A stretch of DNA of 32,510 nt from a virus: positions 1-32,510 of the IMG/VR virus record IMGVR_UViG_3300032215_000306. One strand, 5' to 3'. The notes below the pieces were generated by a model. The model searched no databases and was not told where the DNA came from. It was given only the letters and a program-made list of their open reading frames with translations. Below, one piece after another: positions 2,237 to 10,933 of the stretch. Position numbers and translations under genes: made by a program. Each line of letters starts with the position of its first letter. Position 1 is the first letter of the stretch.

Positions 2237-2857
2237 ATGACAGAAGAAATTAAAAATTTAGATGAAAAGGTTGATGAACTAGAAGCAGCCACGAAAAAGT
2301 ATGCCAGTAAAGATACTGTTATTAGTATTGGCGGCTATGAATTCACACCTGCAAAACTAATGGTAGCATTTACTATTGTATCATCAACATTGGGCGGATT
2401 GTATGGAGCTTTTGAAGTTTACAAAGACTATCAAAGTATGAAGAAAAAGATTGCTGAGTATTCTGCACCTGACTTAAGTGGCTTTGACAAGCGACTAGCA
2501 GTTATTGAAGAAAACAGCAGTAAAACTTCAGATTACACACGTGATATTAAAACTGACTTAAAGAATGATATCCGTCGTAACGAAAGTGTAACAGAACAGG
2601 TAGAGCGTAGTGTTAAAAATGCACAACGTGAAACTGAAGGTGAAATGCGTGATATGCGTAAAGCGGTTCGTGAAGATTTGGAAAGAGCAAGAAGCGAAGC
2701 CGCTACTATTCGTAAAGATATGGAACAAACCCGTAAAGAAATTAATTCAGAATTTACATCAGCCCGTAGAGAAATAAATCGTGAAGTGGAAACACTAAAG
2801 CGTGAGGTTGACCAAAAGATTCAAAAGGCTATTGACAATCCTCTTGCAAACAAGTAA
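2237..2857 (+). CDS. Membrane-anchored long coiled-coil protein
   Basis: The 206-residue product starts with a short acidic helix (residues 1-20) and has a hydrophobic segment at about 40-61. Then comes a long uninterrupted charged helix (about 75-200) rich in Arg, Glu and Lys with heptad character (REDLERARSEAATIRK). This is the plan of a rod anchored to the inner membrane and extending into the cytoplasm or periplasm. It could be an inner-membrane spanin-like protein or a membrane scaffold. A separate spanin-like pair exists at 15397/15906, which argues against this one being the main spanin. The gene starts one base after the previous stop. Confidence 0.8.
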   Translation: MTEEIKNLDEKVDELEAATKKYASKDTVISIGGYEFTPAKLMVAFTIVSSTLGGLYGAFEVYKDYQSMKKKIAEYSAPDLSGFDKRLAVIEENSSKTSDYTRDIKTDLKNDIRRNESVTEQVERSVKNAQRETEGEMRDMRKAVREDLERARSEAATIRKDMEQTRKEINSEFTSARREINREVETLKREVDQKIQKAIDNPLANK

Positions 2858-2861
2858 ACTA

Positions 2862-2869
2862 TATAAATA
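2862..2869 (+). promoter_or_regulatory. T4-type late promoter box TATAAATA
   Basis: An exact match to the T4 late promoter consensus lies just after the 2237 gene and 28 bases before the next ATG. It would give a short leader containing the AAAGGAG ribosome-binding site. It could drive the 43-residue protein and the downstream tmRNA. Confidence 0.65.
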
Positions 2870-2897
2870 GTTATCACAGTCTCGAAAGGAGAATGTT

Positions 2898-3029
2898 ATG
2901 AAAGTTAGAAAATTAGTTATGAAACTTAACAAGGCTGAAATGGAACATAATCTTTCAAAGGTTAAAGAACTTTGGTTTAAACTTCTAAAGAAAAGCCTAA
3001 AAGGCAAACACACAGAGGCAGTTAAGTAA
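2898..3029 (+). CDS. Small basic protein (43 aa)
   Basis: A strong AAAGGAG precedes the ATG by seven bases, and a late-type promoter box lies just upstream, which supports a real gene despite its 43-residue length. The product is Lys-rich and probably one amphipathic helix (MKVRKLVMKLNKAEMEHN). It has no membrane segment and the family is not recognised. The stop codon ends one base before the predicted start of the tmRNA acceptor piece, so gene and tmRNA are probably co-transcribed. Confidence 0.55.
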   Translation: MKVRKLVMKLNKAEMEHNLSKVKELWFKLLKKSLKGKHTEAVK

Positions 3030-3253
3030 AAGTTATTGCTGTATGAAGCAAAGAGAAAAGTGTTCTGGACGGGGGTGCGAATCCCCCCAGGTCCACCACA
3101 AGCATTTTGTATCTAAACGACAGAAAAGTTAGATTTAAGTCAAAAAAGATATTAAAGTGCTTTTGATGGGCCTGACCTAGATTCGACAGGGCAACAAGTA
3201 AATTAGTGGACAGCACGGTAGGCGATGACCGTTAATCAAGCAAAAAAGTAAAC

Positions 3254-3286
3254 GCAAACGACTCACAGTTCGCATTAGCTGCCTAA
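3254..3286 (+). other. tmRNA proteolysis-tag reading frame
   Basis: The frame GCA to TAA encodes ANDSQFALAA and begins in the AAACGCAAACGAC context typical of the tmRNA resume codon. The AND start and ALAA end match the tags of beta- and gammaproteobacteria, where ALAA is the signal read by ClpXP and ClpAP. The middle residues SQF differ from the E. coli ENY. Confidence 0.93.
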
Positions 3287-3327
3287 ACTCAGCTTAGGGT
3301 AGGAAATACCTCGTAACAGAAACAACC

Positions 3328-3353
3328 AAAATAGGGGCTTCGGCCCCTATTTT
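3328..3353 (+). terminator. Rho-independent terminator of the tmRNA
   Basis: An 11-bp perfect stem (3328-3338 with 3343-3353) closed by a TTCG tetraloop runs into TTTT. It ends the tmRNA transcript before the late-type promoter at 3396. Confidence 0.85.
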
Positions 3354-3395
3354 CACCAAAAAACACTAGATTTTTTTACGCAACTGAATTATTAC

Positions 3396-3403
3396 ACTAA
3401 ATA
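3396..3403 (+). promoter_or_regulatory. Late-type promoter box ACTAAATA
   Basis: This variant of the NATAAATA box lies 45 bases before the outer-membrane protein start. The predicted transcript would begin at about 3409-3410, just before the palindrome at 3413. The variant ACTAAATA also occurs by chance at stop codons in this window, so confidence is moderate. Confidence 0.45.
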
Positions 3404-3412
3404 CATATTCAC

Positions 3413-3428
3413 GTGACAAATTTGTCAC
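3413..3428. repeat. Perfect 16-bp palindrome (possible operator)
   Basis: GTGACAAATTTGTCAC is its own reverse complement. It lies between a late-type promoter box and the outer-membrane protein start, where a dimeric repressor could bind or where the RNA could fold a hairpin at the 5' end. A GTG start at 3413 would put it inside the frame, but the signal peptide and ribosome-binding site place the real start at 3449. Confidence 0.6.
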
Positions 3429-3448
3429 ATTTTACAAGGAAACAAAAA

Positions 3449-4000
3449 ATGAAGAAAATCTCTCTAATTATTGCATCATTGGCCTTTGCCGGTCTCGCAT
3501 CAGCAGGAACAATCACTGTTGAAGGTCAAAACCAACAAGGTGACAAGGGTGCCAAAGATTCAGTTAATTATCAATTGTCTGTAAAAGAATCATTCAACAG
3601 CACTTTTGCAGGTGATGTTGGTTTTACTAACTATCAGCAAAATGGTACTAATGCACTAAGCACACGCTTAGAAGCAGGTGTAACTGGTACAATGCCAGTT
3701 GGTCCTCTAGTTGCATATACACGTGTTGCAGTTGGTGACAAGTATTCTAATACAGGTGACTTTAACTATTGGTCAGTTGAGCCAGGTGTTATGTACACTA
3801 CTGGTAAGGTAACTGCTAAATTAGGTTATCGTTATCGCACATCATTTAACTCAAATGTTAATCTTGACACAACTGATACAGTTCGTGTTGGTTTAAGCTA
3901 TGCTTTAACTAAGAAAGATTCACTTGGTATTCGTTACGACCAAGTTCGTGGTGACAGCAACAATCACAGCGTTAACTTTGCATATACACGTTCATTCTAA
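3449..4000 (+). CDS. Outer-membrane beta-barrel protein
   Basis: The ATG at 3449 follows AAGGAAAC and begins a textbook Sec signal peptide: MKK, then a hydrophobic core, then a cleavage site after ASA (about residue 19). This makes a longer start at 3413 unlikely. The mature part (about 164 residues) alternates polar and hydrophobic residues in repeated strands of about 10-12 residues separated by short turns. It ends in a strand terminating with Phe (YTRSF), the signature recognised by the BAM machinery. The size fits an 8-stranded OmpA/OmpW-like barrel. Outer-membrane proteins are rare in T4-like phages, so the gene was probably acquired from a host. A plausible but unproven role is changing the infected cell's surface, for example blocking superinfection. 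A promoter box and palindrome precede it and a terminator follows. Confidence 0.85.
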   Translation: MKKISLIIASLAFAGLASAGTITVEGQNQQGDKGAKDSVNYQLSVKESFNSTFAGDVGFTNYQQNGTNALSTRLEAGVTGTMPVGPLVAYTRVAVGDKYSNTGDFNYWSVEPGVMYTTGKVTAKLGYRYRTSFNSNVNLDTTDTVRVGLSYALTKKDSLGIRYDQVRGDSNNHSVNFAYTRSF

Positions 4001-4017
4001 TCAGTGATTAGAGATAC

Positions 4018-4041
4018 AAAAGGGCTTTAGGGCCCTTTTTC
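4018..4041 (+). terminator. Rho-independent terminator
   Basis: An 8-bp stem (AAAAGGGC with GCCCTTTT) and a 6-base loop run into a T-tract. It separates the outer-membrane protein gene from the phosphoesterase gene. Confidence 0.85.
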
Positions 4042-4072
4042 TTTGGCTTAACAGGGTGTAAGCACACATAGC

Positions 4073-4080
4073 GATAAATA
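4073..4080 (+). promoter_or_regulatory. Late-type promoter box GATAAATA, leaderless geometry
   Basis: The box ends five bases before the ATG at 4086. Transcription starting about six bases downstream would begin at or next to the start codon. No ribosome-binding site is present in the gap. Confidence 0.6.
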
Positions 4081-4085
4081 CTACG

Positions 4086-4880
4086 ATGAAAAAAACTTAT
4101 CGCACTATTTTTATTAGTGATGTCCATTTAGGGACTAGAGACTGCAAAGCCAATGAATTAAATAATTTTCTAAAGCATAACACATGCGAAACATTATTTT
4201 TAGTTGGCGATATCATTGACGCCTGGAGAATACAACAAAACAAATGGCGATGGAAACAAAGCCATACTAACGTTGTACGCAGAGTTTTAGGTCATGCAAA
4301 GCGTGGAACAAAAGTTGTTTATGTTGCAGGCAATCACGATGAGTTTTTACGCCCAATGATACCATATGGTTTCAGCTTTGGTCTTATAGAAATAACAAAT
4401 CAAACTGAACATATAGGTGCAGATGGCAAACATTATCTAGTTACACATGGTGACTTGTTTGATGGCATTACTAGACTTGCACCATGGTTGAGTTTTTTAG
4501 GAGATAAAGCATATGATTTCATTCTTTCGCTTAATAGCAAGTTCAATTGGATACGTCATCGTTTTGGTTTTGGGTACTTTAGTCTTAGTAAATATCTTAA
4601 GCACAGAGTAAAAAAGGCTGTAGATTTTATATTTCAATTTGAAAAGAATCTAGCCGCTTACTGTATCAAACGAGGTTTTGATGGGGTAATATGTGGTCAC
4701 ATACATCATGCAGAAATTAAAAAAATTGATGGTGTTACATATATGAATGACGGAGACTGGGTTGAAAGTTGTACTGCATTGGTAGAGCATCATGACGGTC
4801 GTTGGGAAATAGTAACTTGGGTTAAAACAAATGACGAAAAAAATTCTAATCATAACGGACAACTTGCCGGATCAAATTAA
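4086..4880 (+). CDS. LpxH-like calcineurin-type phosphoesterase
   Basis: The 264-residue product has the complete metal-binding set of the calcineurin-like phosphoesterase fold: SDVHLG (D12, H14), GDIIDAW (D42), GNHDE (N83, H84), THGD (H121) and GHIHHAE (H205, H207). The NDGDWVES motif near the C-terminus is characteristic of the COG2908 group. That group is annotated as UDP-2,3-diacylglucosamine pyrophosphatase-like and includes relatives of LpxH, which acts in lipid A synthesis at the inner membrane. The usual length is about 240-280 residues. It overlaps the downstream glycosyltransferase gene by 50 bases, and in proteobacteria this phosphoesterase is often next to a glycosyltransferase of this type. 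The substrate in the phage context is unknown, but lipid A or glycolipid processing is the best guess. A leaderless late-type promoter precedes it. Confidence 0.88.
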   Translation: MKKTYRTIFISDVHLGTRDCKANELNNFLKHNTCETLFLVGDIIDAWRIQQNKWRWKQSHTNVVRRVLGHAKRGTKVVYVAGNHDEFLRPMIPYGFSFGLIEITNQTEHIGADGKHYLVTHGDLFDGITRLAPWLSFLGDKAYDFILSLNSKFNWIRHRFGFGYFSLSKYLKHRVKKAVDFIFQFEKNLAAYCIKRGFDGVICGHIHHAEIKKIDGVTYMNDGDWVESCTALVEHHDGRWEIVTWVKTNDEKNSNHNGQLAGSN

Positions 4881-5835
4881 TGGTGTCGTTACAACGTATA
4901 AAAATTTGGAGGCTTATGCAGTTCTGGATGATTATACTATTGATTATATTGACCCCAGGAGGTTCAGCTATGTTGATTGTCCTGGCTACAACGAGGTCAA
5001 GATTAGCTATCCGAGGAACATGGGCAAGAAGATTAAGGAGATATCTCCGGATCATATCCATGTCGCCACAGAGGGTACTATTGGTTTGTGGGCTAGAGCA
5101 TATCTTTCAAAATGTAATATTAGGCACAATACTGCTTATCATACTAAGTTTCCTGAAGGTCTAAAAAAGTTATTCAACATACCTGAAACACTAACATGGC
5201 GTTTTGTTCGTTGGTTTCATAAGCATAGTGGTAAAGTATTAACAACTACAGATTCAATGGTAGAAGAATTACAAAGTCATGGCTTTGACACTGAAGTAGT
5301 ATCATGGACTAGAGGAGTTGACCGTGATATTTTTAACCCAACCTATCGTACAAAAACAGTAGTGAATGGCCCTATACTATTATGTGTAGCACGGGTAAGC
5401 AAAGAAAAAAACCTTGAAGATTTCTTTGAACTAGACTACTCAAACGCAAATAAAATTATGGTAGGTGATGGGCCTATGTTAGAGACTTATAAGAAAAAAT
5501 ATCCTGATGTAATGTTTACAGGATTTAAAACAGGTGTAGATTTAGCAAAATATTATGCCATGGCAGATGTATTTGTATTCCCAAGCCGTTGGGAAACATT
5601 TGGTATTGTTATGATTGAAGCTATGGCCTGCGGAACTCCTGTTGCCGCATATCCATGTCAGGGACCTGAAGATGTGGTTGATGAAGGTATAACTGGTTGC
5701 TTGAATGATGATTTAAAACAAGCAGTCAAAGATGCACTAATGTTAGATAGGCAAAAAGTATGGGAAGGAAGTGGCAGATGGTCATGGCAACGTGCATGGG
5801 AAATATTTAGAGACAACTTAGTTCCTACTAAATAA
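4831..5835 (+). CDS. GT4-family glycosyltransferase (GT-B fold)
   Basis: The 334-residue product has both halves of a GT-B glycosyltransferase. The N-terminal domain has NLPDQINGVV (11-20), ATEGTIGLWAR (79-89) and YHTKFPEG (103-110). The C-terminal nucleotide-sugar domain has the VARVSKEKN strand (186-194), GDGP (212-215) and the E-x7-E signature ETFGIVMIEAMACGTPV (255-271). The RGVD motif at 161-164 is typical of the proteobacterial group whose genes pair with COG2908 phosphoesterases. It would transfer a sugar from an NDP- or GDP-sugar to a lipid or envelope acceptor. The start lies inside the upstream gene, so the two are translationally linked. Phage DNA glucosylation is a less likely alternative because T4 alpha- and beta-glucosyltransferases look different. 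Confidence 0.88.
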   Translation: MTKKILIITDNLPDQINGVVTTYKNLEAYAVLDDYTIDYIDPRRFSYVDCPGYNEVKISYPRNMGKKIKEISPDHIHVATEGTIGLWARAYLSKCNIRHNTAYHTKFPEGLKKLFNIPETLTWRFVRWFHKHSGKVLTTTDSMVEELQSHGFDTEVVSWTRGVDRDIFNPTYRTKTVVNGPILLCVARVSKEKNLEDFFELDYSNANKIMVGDGPMLETYKKKYPDVMFTGFKTGVDLAKYYAMADVFVFPSRWETFGIVMIEAMACGTPVAAYPCQGPEDVVDEGITGCLNDDLKQAVKDALMLDRQKVWEGSGRWSWQRAWEIFRDNLVPTK

Positions 5836-8233: not shown

Positions 8234-9337
8234 ATGGCATCGCATGTAACTGACAATCTCACTATCACTAGTGTACAAACTCGCAAAGCATTTCTCAAGG
8301 CTTTCAAAGCAAAACGTCCCGTATTCTTGTGGGGCCCCCCCGGTATCGGTAAATCTGAAGTGGTAGCTGAAGTTACTGAAGAACTTGGTGGCTATATGAT
8401 TGACTTGCGTATGGCACAAATGGAGCCTACTGATATTCGAGGTATCCCTTACTTCAATCGTGATATTAACAAGATGGATTGGGCGTCTCCTGTAGATTTG
8501 CCTGATGAGGAACTTGCAAGTCAATACCCTATCGTTGTTCTTTTCTTAGATGAAATGAACAGTGCAAGCCCTGCAGTACAGGCAGCAGGCTATCAATTGA
8601 TTCTTAATCGCCGTGTAGGTAAGTATGTGTTGCCCGATAACGTTGTTATCGTAGCGGCAGGTAATCGTGATAGTGACAAAGGTGTTACATATCGTATGCC
8701 GATGCCCCTAGCTAATCGTTTCTTGCACTTGGAAATGCGAGCTGACTTTACATCATGGCAGAATTGGGCTGTGAACAAAGGCATTCACAAAGACGTTGTG
8801 GGTTACCTGTCATTCGCTAAACAAGACTTGTACGATTTTGACAATAAATCTTCAAGCCGCGCATTCGCTACTCCACGTAGCTGGTGCTTTGTAAGTGACT
8901 TGTTGAGTGATGAGGATGACACTGATACTGATACATTGTTCAATCTGATTGCAGGTTCAGTTGGTGAAGGTCTTGCTGTTAAGTTTGCGGCACACCGCAA
9001 AGTTGCAGGTCGCATGCCTGAGCCGAGCGACATTCTTAGTGGTAAGGTTAAGGACCTTGCAGTTAAGGAAGTGTCTGCAATGTACTCATTGACTATTTCA
9101 ATGTGCTATGAATTGAAGGATTCACTTGAAGGTAAAAAAGTTAGTCAGAAACAATTCCACGAAATGGCTGACAACTTCTTTGGCTACATCATGGCTAACT
9201 TTGAAACTGAATTGGTTGTAATGGGTGCTAAGATTGCGCTTAAAACTTACAAGTTGCCGATTGAGCCTAGTCAATTGAAAAACTTTGATGAGTTTCACAA
9301 GAAGTACGGCAAGTACATTGTAGAAGCAGGTAACTAA
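8234..9337 (+). CDS. MoxR-type AAA+ ATPase
   Basis: The 367-residue product has Walker A GPPGIGKS (34-41), Walker B VVLFLDEMN (101-109), a sensor region (VAAGNRDSD, about residues 140-148) and an Arg-rich ANRFLH segment. It has the spacing of the MoxR/NorQ/CbbQ group rather than a helicase or clamp loader. MoxR ATPases usually work with a VWA-domain partner to remodel a target or load a metal cofactor. Here the metallopeptidase/VWA protein lies two genes downstream, with one small acidic gene between, so the pair fits the family rule. An acidic loop (DEDDTDTDT) follows the core. Its own promoter and AAGGAG drive it. The target in the infected cell is unknown. Confidence 0.88.
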   Translation: MASHVTDNLTITSVQTRKAFLKAFKAKRPVFLWGPPGIGKSEVVAEVTEELGGYMIDLRMAQMEPTDIRGIPYFNRDINKMDWASPVDLPDEELASQYPIVVLFLDEMNSASPAVQAAGYQLILNRRVGKYVLPDNVVIVAAGNRDSDKGVTYRMPMPLANRFLHLEMRADFTSWQNWAVNKGIHKDVVGYLSFAKQDLYDFDNKSSSRAFATPRSWCFVSDLLSDEDDTDTDTLFNLIAGSVGEGLAVKFAAHRKVAGRMPEPSDILSGKVKDLAVKEVSAMYSLTISMCYELKDSLEGKKVSQKQFHEMADNFFGYIMANFETELVVMGAKIALKTYKLPIEPSQLKNFDEFHKKYGKYIVEAGN

Positions 9338-9649: not shown

Positions 9650-10933
9650 ATGAGTGATGTTATCAGTCCCACAAAACGCAAGCGCAGTAAAAAATTTGAA
9701 AATCTAGTAGGTCCAACTGACCCTAAAATTGATGCTCAGGCTCGTGAACGTATTATTACTGCACGTGTAGGCTTGCTATTGCGCCATTCGTTTTTTGGCA
9801 ATCTTGCAACAAGGTTGCGTTTAGAAAATGCAGATGAATGGTGTAGTACAGCGGCAACAGATGGTGTGAAGTTTTATTACAATTCACGTTTCATTATGTT
9901 GCTAAAGCCAAAAGAAGTTGAATTCTTAGTTGGACATGAAGTGTTGCACGTTGTATATGACCACATGGGTCGTATTGGTGACCGTGACCCACAAATCTTT
10001 AACATTGCTAATGACTATGCAGTTAATGCAGACTTGAAACGTCACAAGGTAGGTGAGTTTATTAAATCGGTTCCTTGCTTGTACGAAACTAAGTATGATG
10101 GCAAGGCTAGTGAGGAAATCTATGATGACCTCATGAAAAATGTTAAGAAAATTAACATTGAAGATTTGATTGACCAAATGATTGACGACCACATGGATGG
10201 TGAAGACGGTGACGGTGGTGGTGAAGGTAAAGAAGGTGATGGCAAAGAAAAAGGCAAAGGTCGCCCTAAAATGTCTCCCGAAGAACGTGAACGTGTTCGT
10301 CAGGAAGTCAAGCAGGCTATCATCAATGCCGCAAGCACTTCTGAGGCAGGTCAATTACCAGCTGGTGTTGAGAGGCTAATCAAGCAACATACTAATCCAG
10401 TTATGCCTTGGCGTGAACTGATTCAAACTAACTTAACTAGTGCTATTCGCACTGACTATAGTTGGATGCGTCCTTCACGCAGAGGTTGGCACATGGATGC
10501 TATTATGCCCGGTATGACTCCCGGAGAAGAAATTGATGTGGTTGTTACACTTGATATGAGTGGCTCTATCAGTAATAAACAAGCACAAGCATTCTTGGGT
10601 GAAATTGCAGGTATGATGAATGCTTTTGATGGTTATAAGATTCATGTATTCTGTTTTGATACTGAGACTTACAACCCAAAAGACTTCAATAGTGAGAACA
10701 TGGATAATATTGATGAGTATGAGCCAATGGGAGGTGGTGGCACTGACTTTGACTGTATCTTTGAGTACTTGAAGACAAATGCAATCGAGCCTAAACGTTT
10801 GATTGTATTCACTGATGGATATCCCTGTGGTTCATGGGGCGACCCAAACTACTGCGATACAACATGGATTATTCATGGTGACAAAAATCCGAATCCCCCG
10901 TTCGGAACTTATGCAATCTATGATGAGAAATGA
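9650..10933 (+). CDS. DUF2201-like metallopeptidase with VWA domain
   Basis: The 427-residue product has two domains. The N-terminal one carries GHEVLHVVYDH, with the HExxH zinc motif at 96-100, as in the putative metallopeptidase domain DUF2201. A flexible acidic/Gly/Lys linker follows (about 178-210). The C-terminal VWA-like domain has a full MIDAS site: DMSGS (302-306), the Thr in GGGGTDF (361-367) and TDG (388-390). VWA/metallopeptidase proteins of this type are typically encoded beside MoxR ATPases, as here. The sequence predicts a metal-dependent adhesion or substrate-recognition module coupled to a protease-like domain and an unfoldase-like partner. It has its own promoter and an AAAGGAA ribosome-binding site, and overlaps the next gene by four bases. 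Confidence 0.87.
   Translation: MSDVISPTKRKRSKKFENLVGPTDPKIDAQARERIITARVGLLLRHSFFGNLATRLRLENADEWCSTAATDGVKFYYNSRFIMLLKPKEVEFLVGHEVLHVVYDHMGRIGDRDPQIFNIANDYAVNADLKRHKVGEFIKSVPCLYETKYDGKASEEIYDDLMKNVKKINIEDLIDQMIDDHMDGEDGDGGGEGKEGDGKEKGKGRPKMSPEERERVRQEVKQAIINAASTSEAGQLPAGVERLIKQHTNPVMPWRELIQTNLTSAIRTDYSWMRPSRRGWHMDAIMPGMTPGEEIDVVVTLDMSGSISNKQAQAFLGEIAGMMNAFDGYKIHVFCFDTETYNPKDFNSENMDNIDEYEPMGGGGTDFDCIFEYLKTNAIEPKRLIVFTDGYPCGSWGDPNYCDTTWIIHGDKNPNPPFGTYAIYDEK

Follow-up and report, generated by a model that had tools for sequence, protein, structure and literature searches.

Does a circularly permuted, two-piece tmRNA gene on a phage genome serve the phage that carries it, or is it host DNA picked up in passing? 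The DNA analysed here (the window) is the whole of IMG/VR record IMGVR_UViG_3300032215_000306, 32,510 bases, a 32.5 kb fragment of a large aquatic T4-like phage that encodes a terminase, a UvsX-like recombinase, a T4-type single-strand binding protein and a phage helicase. The closest terminases among isolates (INPHARED), about 50% identical, belong to Sinorhizobium, Pseudomonas and Agrobacterium jumbo phages, while relatives that are 81–90% identical are common among viral contigs. One of these, 86% identical, lies on a contig of 524,565 bases that also carries a permuted tmRNA, and permuted tmRNAs score above cutoff in 6 of 34 terminase-relative records (the 524 kb contig included), most of which are fragments. 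In the 80.6 kb record of another terminase relative (G002), two partial matches to a permuted tmRNA, both weak, lie about 400 nt from each other (L207 and L208) and may reflect a decaying or duplicated tmRNA gene. Elsewhere in the window, a MoxR/AAA-type ATPase (8234–9337) is paired with a DUF2201 metallopeptidase/VWA-like protein (9650–10933), the latter 77–92% identical in five terminase relatives.

The window gene is a complete, phage-borne, two-piece tmRNA gene at positions 3037–3355. The first-pass annotation had read it from the letters as a phage-encoded, circularly permuted tmRNA and proposed a check with Infernal and the Rfam models. ARAGORN calls a permuted tmRNA with the tag ANDSQFALAA, and cmscan gives 148.4 bits for RF01850 beta_tmRNA (E 7.6e-46, 2984–3355; curated cutoff 84) and 144.2 bits for RF04321 tmRNA_permuted (E 1.1e-28, 3037–3286; curated cutoff 47), a signal far above chance. 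The acceptor piece comes first, followed by the intervening segment and the coding piece, and every coordinate given earlier for the CCA, the 69 nt segment and the start of the coding piece agrees with the sequence. The features are as follows.

2832–2860, + strand: promoter-like site TTGACA-17-TAAACT upstream of the tmRNA, on weak evidence (10 of 12 consensus bases; 4 sites in the region against 1.4 expected)
3037–3098, + strand: acceptor piece, the 3′ half of the tRNA-like domain, with encoded CCA (RF04321 match starting at 3037; sequence)
3038–3042, + strand: outer P2 strand GCUGU, partner of ACAGC at 3210–3214 in the other piece (86–94% standard pairs, with compensatory swaps, in 127 phage homologues among the matches listed)
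3061–3067, + strand: inner P2 strand UGUUCUG, partner of CAGGGCA at 3187–3193 (86–100% standard pairs, with compensatory swaps, in the 127 homologues among the matches listed)
3071–3087, + strand: T-arm, a 5-bp stem GGGGG/CCCCC (3071–3075/3083–3087) with loop UGCGAAU, position 55 being G3077 (stem 100% paired in the 127 homologues among the matches listed)
3088–3098, + strand: acceptor 3′ strand CAGGUCC (3088–3094), discriminator A3095 and CCA 3096–3098 (sequence, covariance models)
3099–3167, + strand: intervening segment, 69 nt, predicted to be removed (position between the pieces)
3168–3174, + strand: acceptor 5′ strand GGGCCUG, start of the coding piece (sequence, covariance models)
3179–3180, + strand: D-loop AG (positions 18–19), A18 paired off with G55 (comparison of phage homologues)
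3187–3193, + strand: inner P2 3′ strand CAGGGCA (covariation)
3210–3214, + strand: outer P2 3′ strand ACAGC (covariation)
3254–3286, + strand: tag frame ANDSQFALAA and TAA (sequence, ARAGORN)
3328–3353, + strand: terminator-like hairpin AAAATAGGGGC-TTCG-GCCCCTATTTT at the 3′ end of the gene (inside the RF01850 match; a terminator scan flagged the − strand only)

The perfect 7-bp acceptor stem with a G:U third pair and the 5-bp T-stem, both described in the first pass, can be read directly in the sequence; the seven acceptor pairs are G3168–C3094, G3169–C3093, G3170:U3092, C–G, C–G, U–A and G–C. The alanine identity set is intact, as had been claimed, with G3170:U3092 (G3:U70), discriminator A3095 and the CCA at 3096–3098. 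So is the tag, which is encoded as GCA AAC GAC TCA CAG TTC GCA TTA GCT GCC TAA and has a resume codon, a hydrophobic LAA-type end and a stop. A point absent from the first reading is the elbow of the tRNA-like domain: the T-loop UGCGAAU has G at position 55, deviating from the UUCRA consensus, and the D-loop is AG instead of GG. The same T-loop deviation occurs in dozens of other homologues. In an unconstrained single-sequence co-fold of both pieces the tRNA-like domain did not form, the T-stem slipping into a GCGA tetraloop in the minimum free energy structure, and support for this domain comes from the covariance models and the comparative data.

The first-pass annotation would have been refuted by close relatives whose acceptor and P2 stems lacked compensatory changes. 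Phage permuted tmRNAs were gathered both by structural pattern and by tag, giving 181 unique parsed homologues among the matches listed, and 127 non-redundant phage homologues among the matches listed were used for covariation. Such changes were found: across the 127 (among the matches listed), pairing holds in 83–100% of cells for the acceptor and T stems and for the inner and outer P2 helices. Where pairs vary, compensatory swaps (GC/CG/AT) are numerous and clearly exceed those in shuffled controls. Both discontinuous P2 helices, which bridge the two RNA pieces, are backed by covariation, indicating that the P2 helix joining the pieces is under structural selection. The third acceptor pair is G:U in 84 of 84 unique homologues from the tag scan (among the matches listed), a set for which the search pattern fixed neither side of that pair. 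When 5,827 column pairs were ranked blindly by mutual information, an acceptor pair came first (3090–3172), a P2 pair second (3066–3188) and the tertiary pair 55–18 third (3077–3179), the last lying about 14 standard deviations out.

The intervening segment ranges from 20 to 220 nt in homologues among the matches listed. Two loci (L216, L237) do not encode the CCA (ACCT instead) and have intervening segments of only about 20–25 nt, the hairpin of which extends the acceptor helix. Three others (L247, L210 and L276) have small open frames with a start codon inside this segment, for example MDSEYLYQLVCGVLSIVLIVVFFIVLF in L247.

Position 55 of the T-loop and position 18 of the D-loop sit on separate RNA pieces, and their coupling is perfect over 267 phage tmRNAs among the matches listed. 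Sequences with U55 have a GG D-loop in 92 of 92 cases, and those with G55 an AG D-loop in 88 of 88, with 87 of 87 in an independent G55 scan (all among the matches listed). Of the 175 G55 D-loops listed, 63 are AGG and hence also contain GG, and 112 are AG without GG. An apparent G18–G55 class of 17 sequences was rejected, as it consisted of AGG D-loops in the wrong register. On a tree built without the elbow columns the elbow state changes about 38 times, against 42 for shuffled labels; judged from this tree, elbows are often swapped among phages, apparently always as a coupled pair. The window tmRNA belongs to the A18–G55 class. That this elbow might be specific to phages was considered and rejected, since the Rfam alphaproteobacterial tmRNA consensus already has a G55 loop (GGCgGUA) with an AGG D-loop (AGGAUCGAC). 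Selected suppressor tRNAs from the Steinberg group reportedly follow the same 18–55 rule, and no mention of the elbow rule was found in the literature searched; coupling across two RNA pieces offers a natural test of tRNA elbow rules. Some phage tmRNAs are alpha-like (L211, L213, L227, L246 and similar), with T-loop GGCAGUG and D-loop AGGAUCGAU. They are missed by ARAGORN, the two that were tested (L211 and L246) are detected by RF04321, and they bear ANDSQFALAA, the same tag as the beta-like ones.

These data make it very probable that the window carries a functional phage-encoded circularly permuted ssrA, which would use the AlaRS, SmpB, ribosomes and Clp protease of the host. A phage's own supply of trans-translation, one of the explanations first offered, is the likeliest function. 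An LAA tag ending is recognised by ClpX. Because the window tag keeps the AND...FALAA frame and 163 of the 181 parsed homologues (among the matches listed) have tags ending in LAA, we infer ordinary trans-translation from a phage gene. SmpB was found in none of 61 related or tmRNA-bearing phage records of up to 524 kb (35 + 26, a set to which the window itself does not belong), in a search that matched 10 of 14 control genomes, so that host SmpB would have to serve. The course that we infer for expression, processing, charging, tagging and benefit to the phage is then as follows. Host tRNA-processing enzymes would cut the transcript into the acceptor and coding pieces, which the acceptor and P2 helices would hold together. 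Host AlaRS would charge the molecule via G3:U70, and host SmpB and EF-Tu would bring it to ribosomes halted on broken messages. There ANDSQFALAA would be appended by the ribosome, and ClpXP-type proteases of the host (perhaps also phage ClpP in some relatives) would destroy the tagged product. The likely gain would be that ribosomes remain available at a time when the messages of host and phage are being broken down and the cell no longer expresses its own ssrA.

Three genes follow the tmRNA in the window.

3449–4000, + strand: small outer-membrane porin-like protein, 183 aa, directly downstream of the tmRNA (Pfam Porin_4, 33.3 bits, on a longer frame from 3413)
4086–4880, + strand: LpxH-like (UDP-2,3-diacylglucosamine diphosphatase) metallophosphatase, also found near other phage tmRNAs (Pfam Metallophos; 83–86% identical in L042, L052, L077 and L092)
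4831–5835, + strand: glycosyltransferase, next after the LpxH-like gene (Pfam Glycos_transf_1; about 74% identical in L042, L052 and L092)

An iterated profile search recovered 78 porin-like homologues (49 clusters at 90% identity), and in 55 of the 68 on tmRNA loci the gene starts on the same strand within 700 nt downstream of the tmRNA or just overlaps it. By area the expectation is about 5 (naive binomial p ~1e-48, which is indicative only, the sequences being related). Genes for ClpP-like proteases also lie near and downstream of tmRNAs, for example at L209:43–690, L222:5481–6038 and L020:3018–3572. They are co-oriented and within 3 kb downstream in 21 of 28 loci with a ClpP match (naive p 5e-7), and the 524 kb terminase relative has two ClpP genes.

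An alternative to ordinary trans-translation is that the tmRNA works chiefly by replacing the host tag, sending rescued proteins to a different or phage-modified protease. The phage-only tag, the divergent or very long tags of some relatives and the placing of ClpP genes would all suit such a switch, as would the presence of ClpP in 25 of 50 sampled phage records, although this is a raw share rather than an enrichment over comparable phages. The window tag, however, has the same AND...FALAA frame as ordinary tags and differs from the Cupriavidus tag ANDEKFALAA at two residues, for which reason ordinary ClpXP handling would be expected, and no ClpP was recognised in the window. Tag switching as the chief role is therefore unlikely.

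Very long tags of 23–31 aa, such as ANADTFDFSAMSFTGNTVRGAANESRFALAA, occur at a number of loci (L042, L014, L110, L034, L049, L068, L098 and L052, and further L008, L037, L082, L086, L010, L025 and L111). Synonymous codon changes occur between relatives, most of the tags begin A-N/K/T-A-D/S/N-T-F-E/D-F/Y, and two end in FAV instead of LAA. At L042 and L052 the LpxH-like and glycosyltransferase neighbours of the window are also present.

A second alternative concerns origin. The first-pass annotation had also suggested that the phage captured a host permuted ssrA, and the alternative is that this capture was recent, non-functional or incidental, the gene being a passenger or an integration-site remnant. 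Integration of phages and islands at ssrA is common, and they often bear pieces of the gene (PMC4131195, PMC9004378). For the tRNA-like domain of the window the highest-scoring model is the betaproteobacterial one, and the acceptor stem recurs unchanged in a Cupriavidus copy. The window gene is complete, however, and no integrase was recognised among the larger window ORFs, to which the scan was confined. The DNA pattern of the tag occurs in at least 119 viral contigs, against 1 of 84,980 GTDB species genomes (bacteria and archaea). Even there ANDSQFALAA itself was not found, as the single pattern match reads ANDTQFALAA, and no mention of the tag string was found in the literature searched. 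The match lies on a 3 kb contig (L209) in a small-genome MAG; besides the permuted tmRNA, this contig encodes tRNAs, a small outer-membrane protein and a ClpP-like protein. It was rejected as a true bacterial carrier and read as a mis-binned phage contig, because of this content and because no other tmRNA match above cutoff was found in 55 small genomes sampled from the class of that MAG.

Cultured phages bear on the same question. Searched by BLASTN against isolates, the full tmRNA gave partial matches to the acceptor piece only, but following these up brought to light unannotated permuted tmRNAs in phages of Xanthomonas and Stenotrophomonas. Permuted genes that are unannotated or barely annotated are carried by Xanthomonas phages X1, Rb1 and XacN1, Stenotrophomonas phages QDWS359 and IME-SM1, Bordetella phage PHB04, Sinorhizobium phage Phosso and Pelagibacter phage Mosig, all of them cultured. 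XacN1 has two copies with equal scores near the record ends (L484 and L488), and its tag, read from one of them, is ANANTFDYALAA. Xanthomonas and Stenotrophomonas are bacteria with a one-piece tmRNA, although their phages carry the permuted form. Tag distribution and the presence of permuted genes in phages of one-piece hosts thus point to an old phage-borne lineage that recombines as the probable source of the window tmRNA, and compensatory changes have built up among the phage copies, making recent capture very improbable.

Least probable of all, and hardly credible, is a decoy that inhibits host trans-translation by titrating SmpB or competing with host tmRNA, as the tRNA-like domain alone of mycobacteriophage DS6A suggests by analogy (a similar molecule inhibits tmRNA; PMC4131195, PMC11915505) and the lack of phage SmpB in the 61 records would allow, since the resume codon, tag frame and stop are intact in the window and a decoy needs no degradation tag, whereas LAA ends are kept in 163 of 181 homologues among the matches listed.

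Beyond a functional ssrA, a wider and quite tentative proposal, which we consider doubtful as a whole, is that large aquatic phages possess a dedicated module for tagging and degrading proteins. It would consist of a permuted tmRNA with separately evolving tags, a porin-like gene directly downstream and often a phage ClpP; during infection it might steer proteins that are rescued or truncated towards a fate under phage control, with recombination swapping elbows to suit alpha- or betaproteobacterial hosts.

Phage two-piece tmRNAs are already published. They have been described in Melnitz and its relatives, 53 of 133 unique phage tmRNA structures are two-piece, and 50 of those 53 are aquatic (PMC9004378). 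The earlier remark that tmRNAs are rare in phages holds for isolates, 2.3% of which have one (PMC9004378), but not for aquatic metagenomic phages, given the abundance there of matches to the tmRNA patterns scanned (structure, tag and G55). Methylophilales phage Melnitz and Pelagibacter phage Mosig (PMC9004378) are, like the source of the window, aquatic T4-like myophages with a complete permuted ssrA. The Mosig gene (RF04321, 93.6 bits) has the A18–G55 elbow in common with the window, and its LpxH-like protein is 49% identical to that of the window. The best clan model for Mosig is RF01849 (alpha), whereas that for the window is RF01850 (beta), and the tags differ (GEDNFALAA by ARAGORN in Mosig). 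In Melnitz and Mosig the tmRNA is associated with a glutamine riboswitch (PMC9004378), whereas none was detected in window positions 2500–4100, even at E ≤ 10. The plasmid copy of Cupriavidus sp. KK10 (L356; RF01850 type) matches the window in gene order, acceptor stem (GGGCCTG/CAGGTCC), G:U pair 3 and AND..FALAA tag class, but has ANDEKFALAA, T-loop UUCGAUU (U55) and D-loop GG where the window has ANDSQFALAA, UGCGAAU and AG.

Other large phages with a tmRNA include huge phages (PMC7162821), Sinorhizobium jumbo phage AP-J-162 (PMC11242549) and Phosso, whose permuted tmRNA scores 113.3 bits. The huge phages are reported to have SmpB as well as tmRNA (PMC7162821), in contrast to the 61 records related to the window or bearing a tmRNA. 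Mycobacteriophage tmRNAs (PMC4131195) are likewise phage-encoded but one-piece, or frameless in DS6A, whereas that of the window is permuted and has a tag. What seems new in this setting is a tag without a match in the cellular genomes searched, the link between tmRNA and porin-like gene and the frequent phage ClpP, which are features of the wider family and not of the window gene alone. Phage two-piece tmRNAs would on this comparison be neither curiosities nor fresh host captures, but a large phage-borne family tied to particular neighbour genes and with at least one tag of its own, and with cultured carriers such as those named above the value of trans-translation to a virus becomes a testable question.
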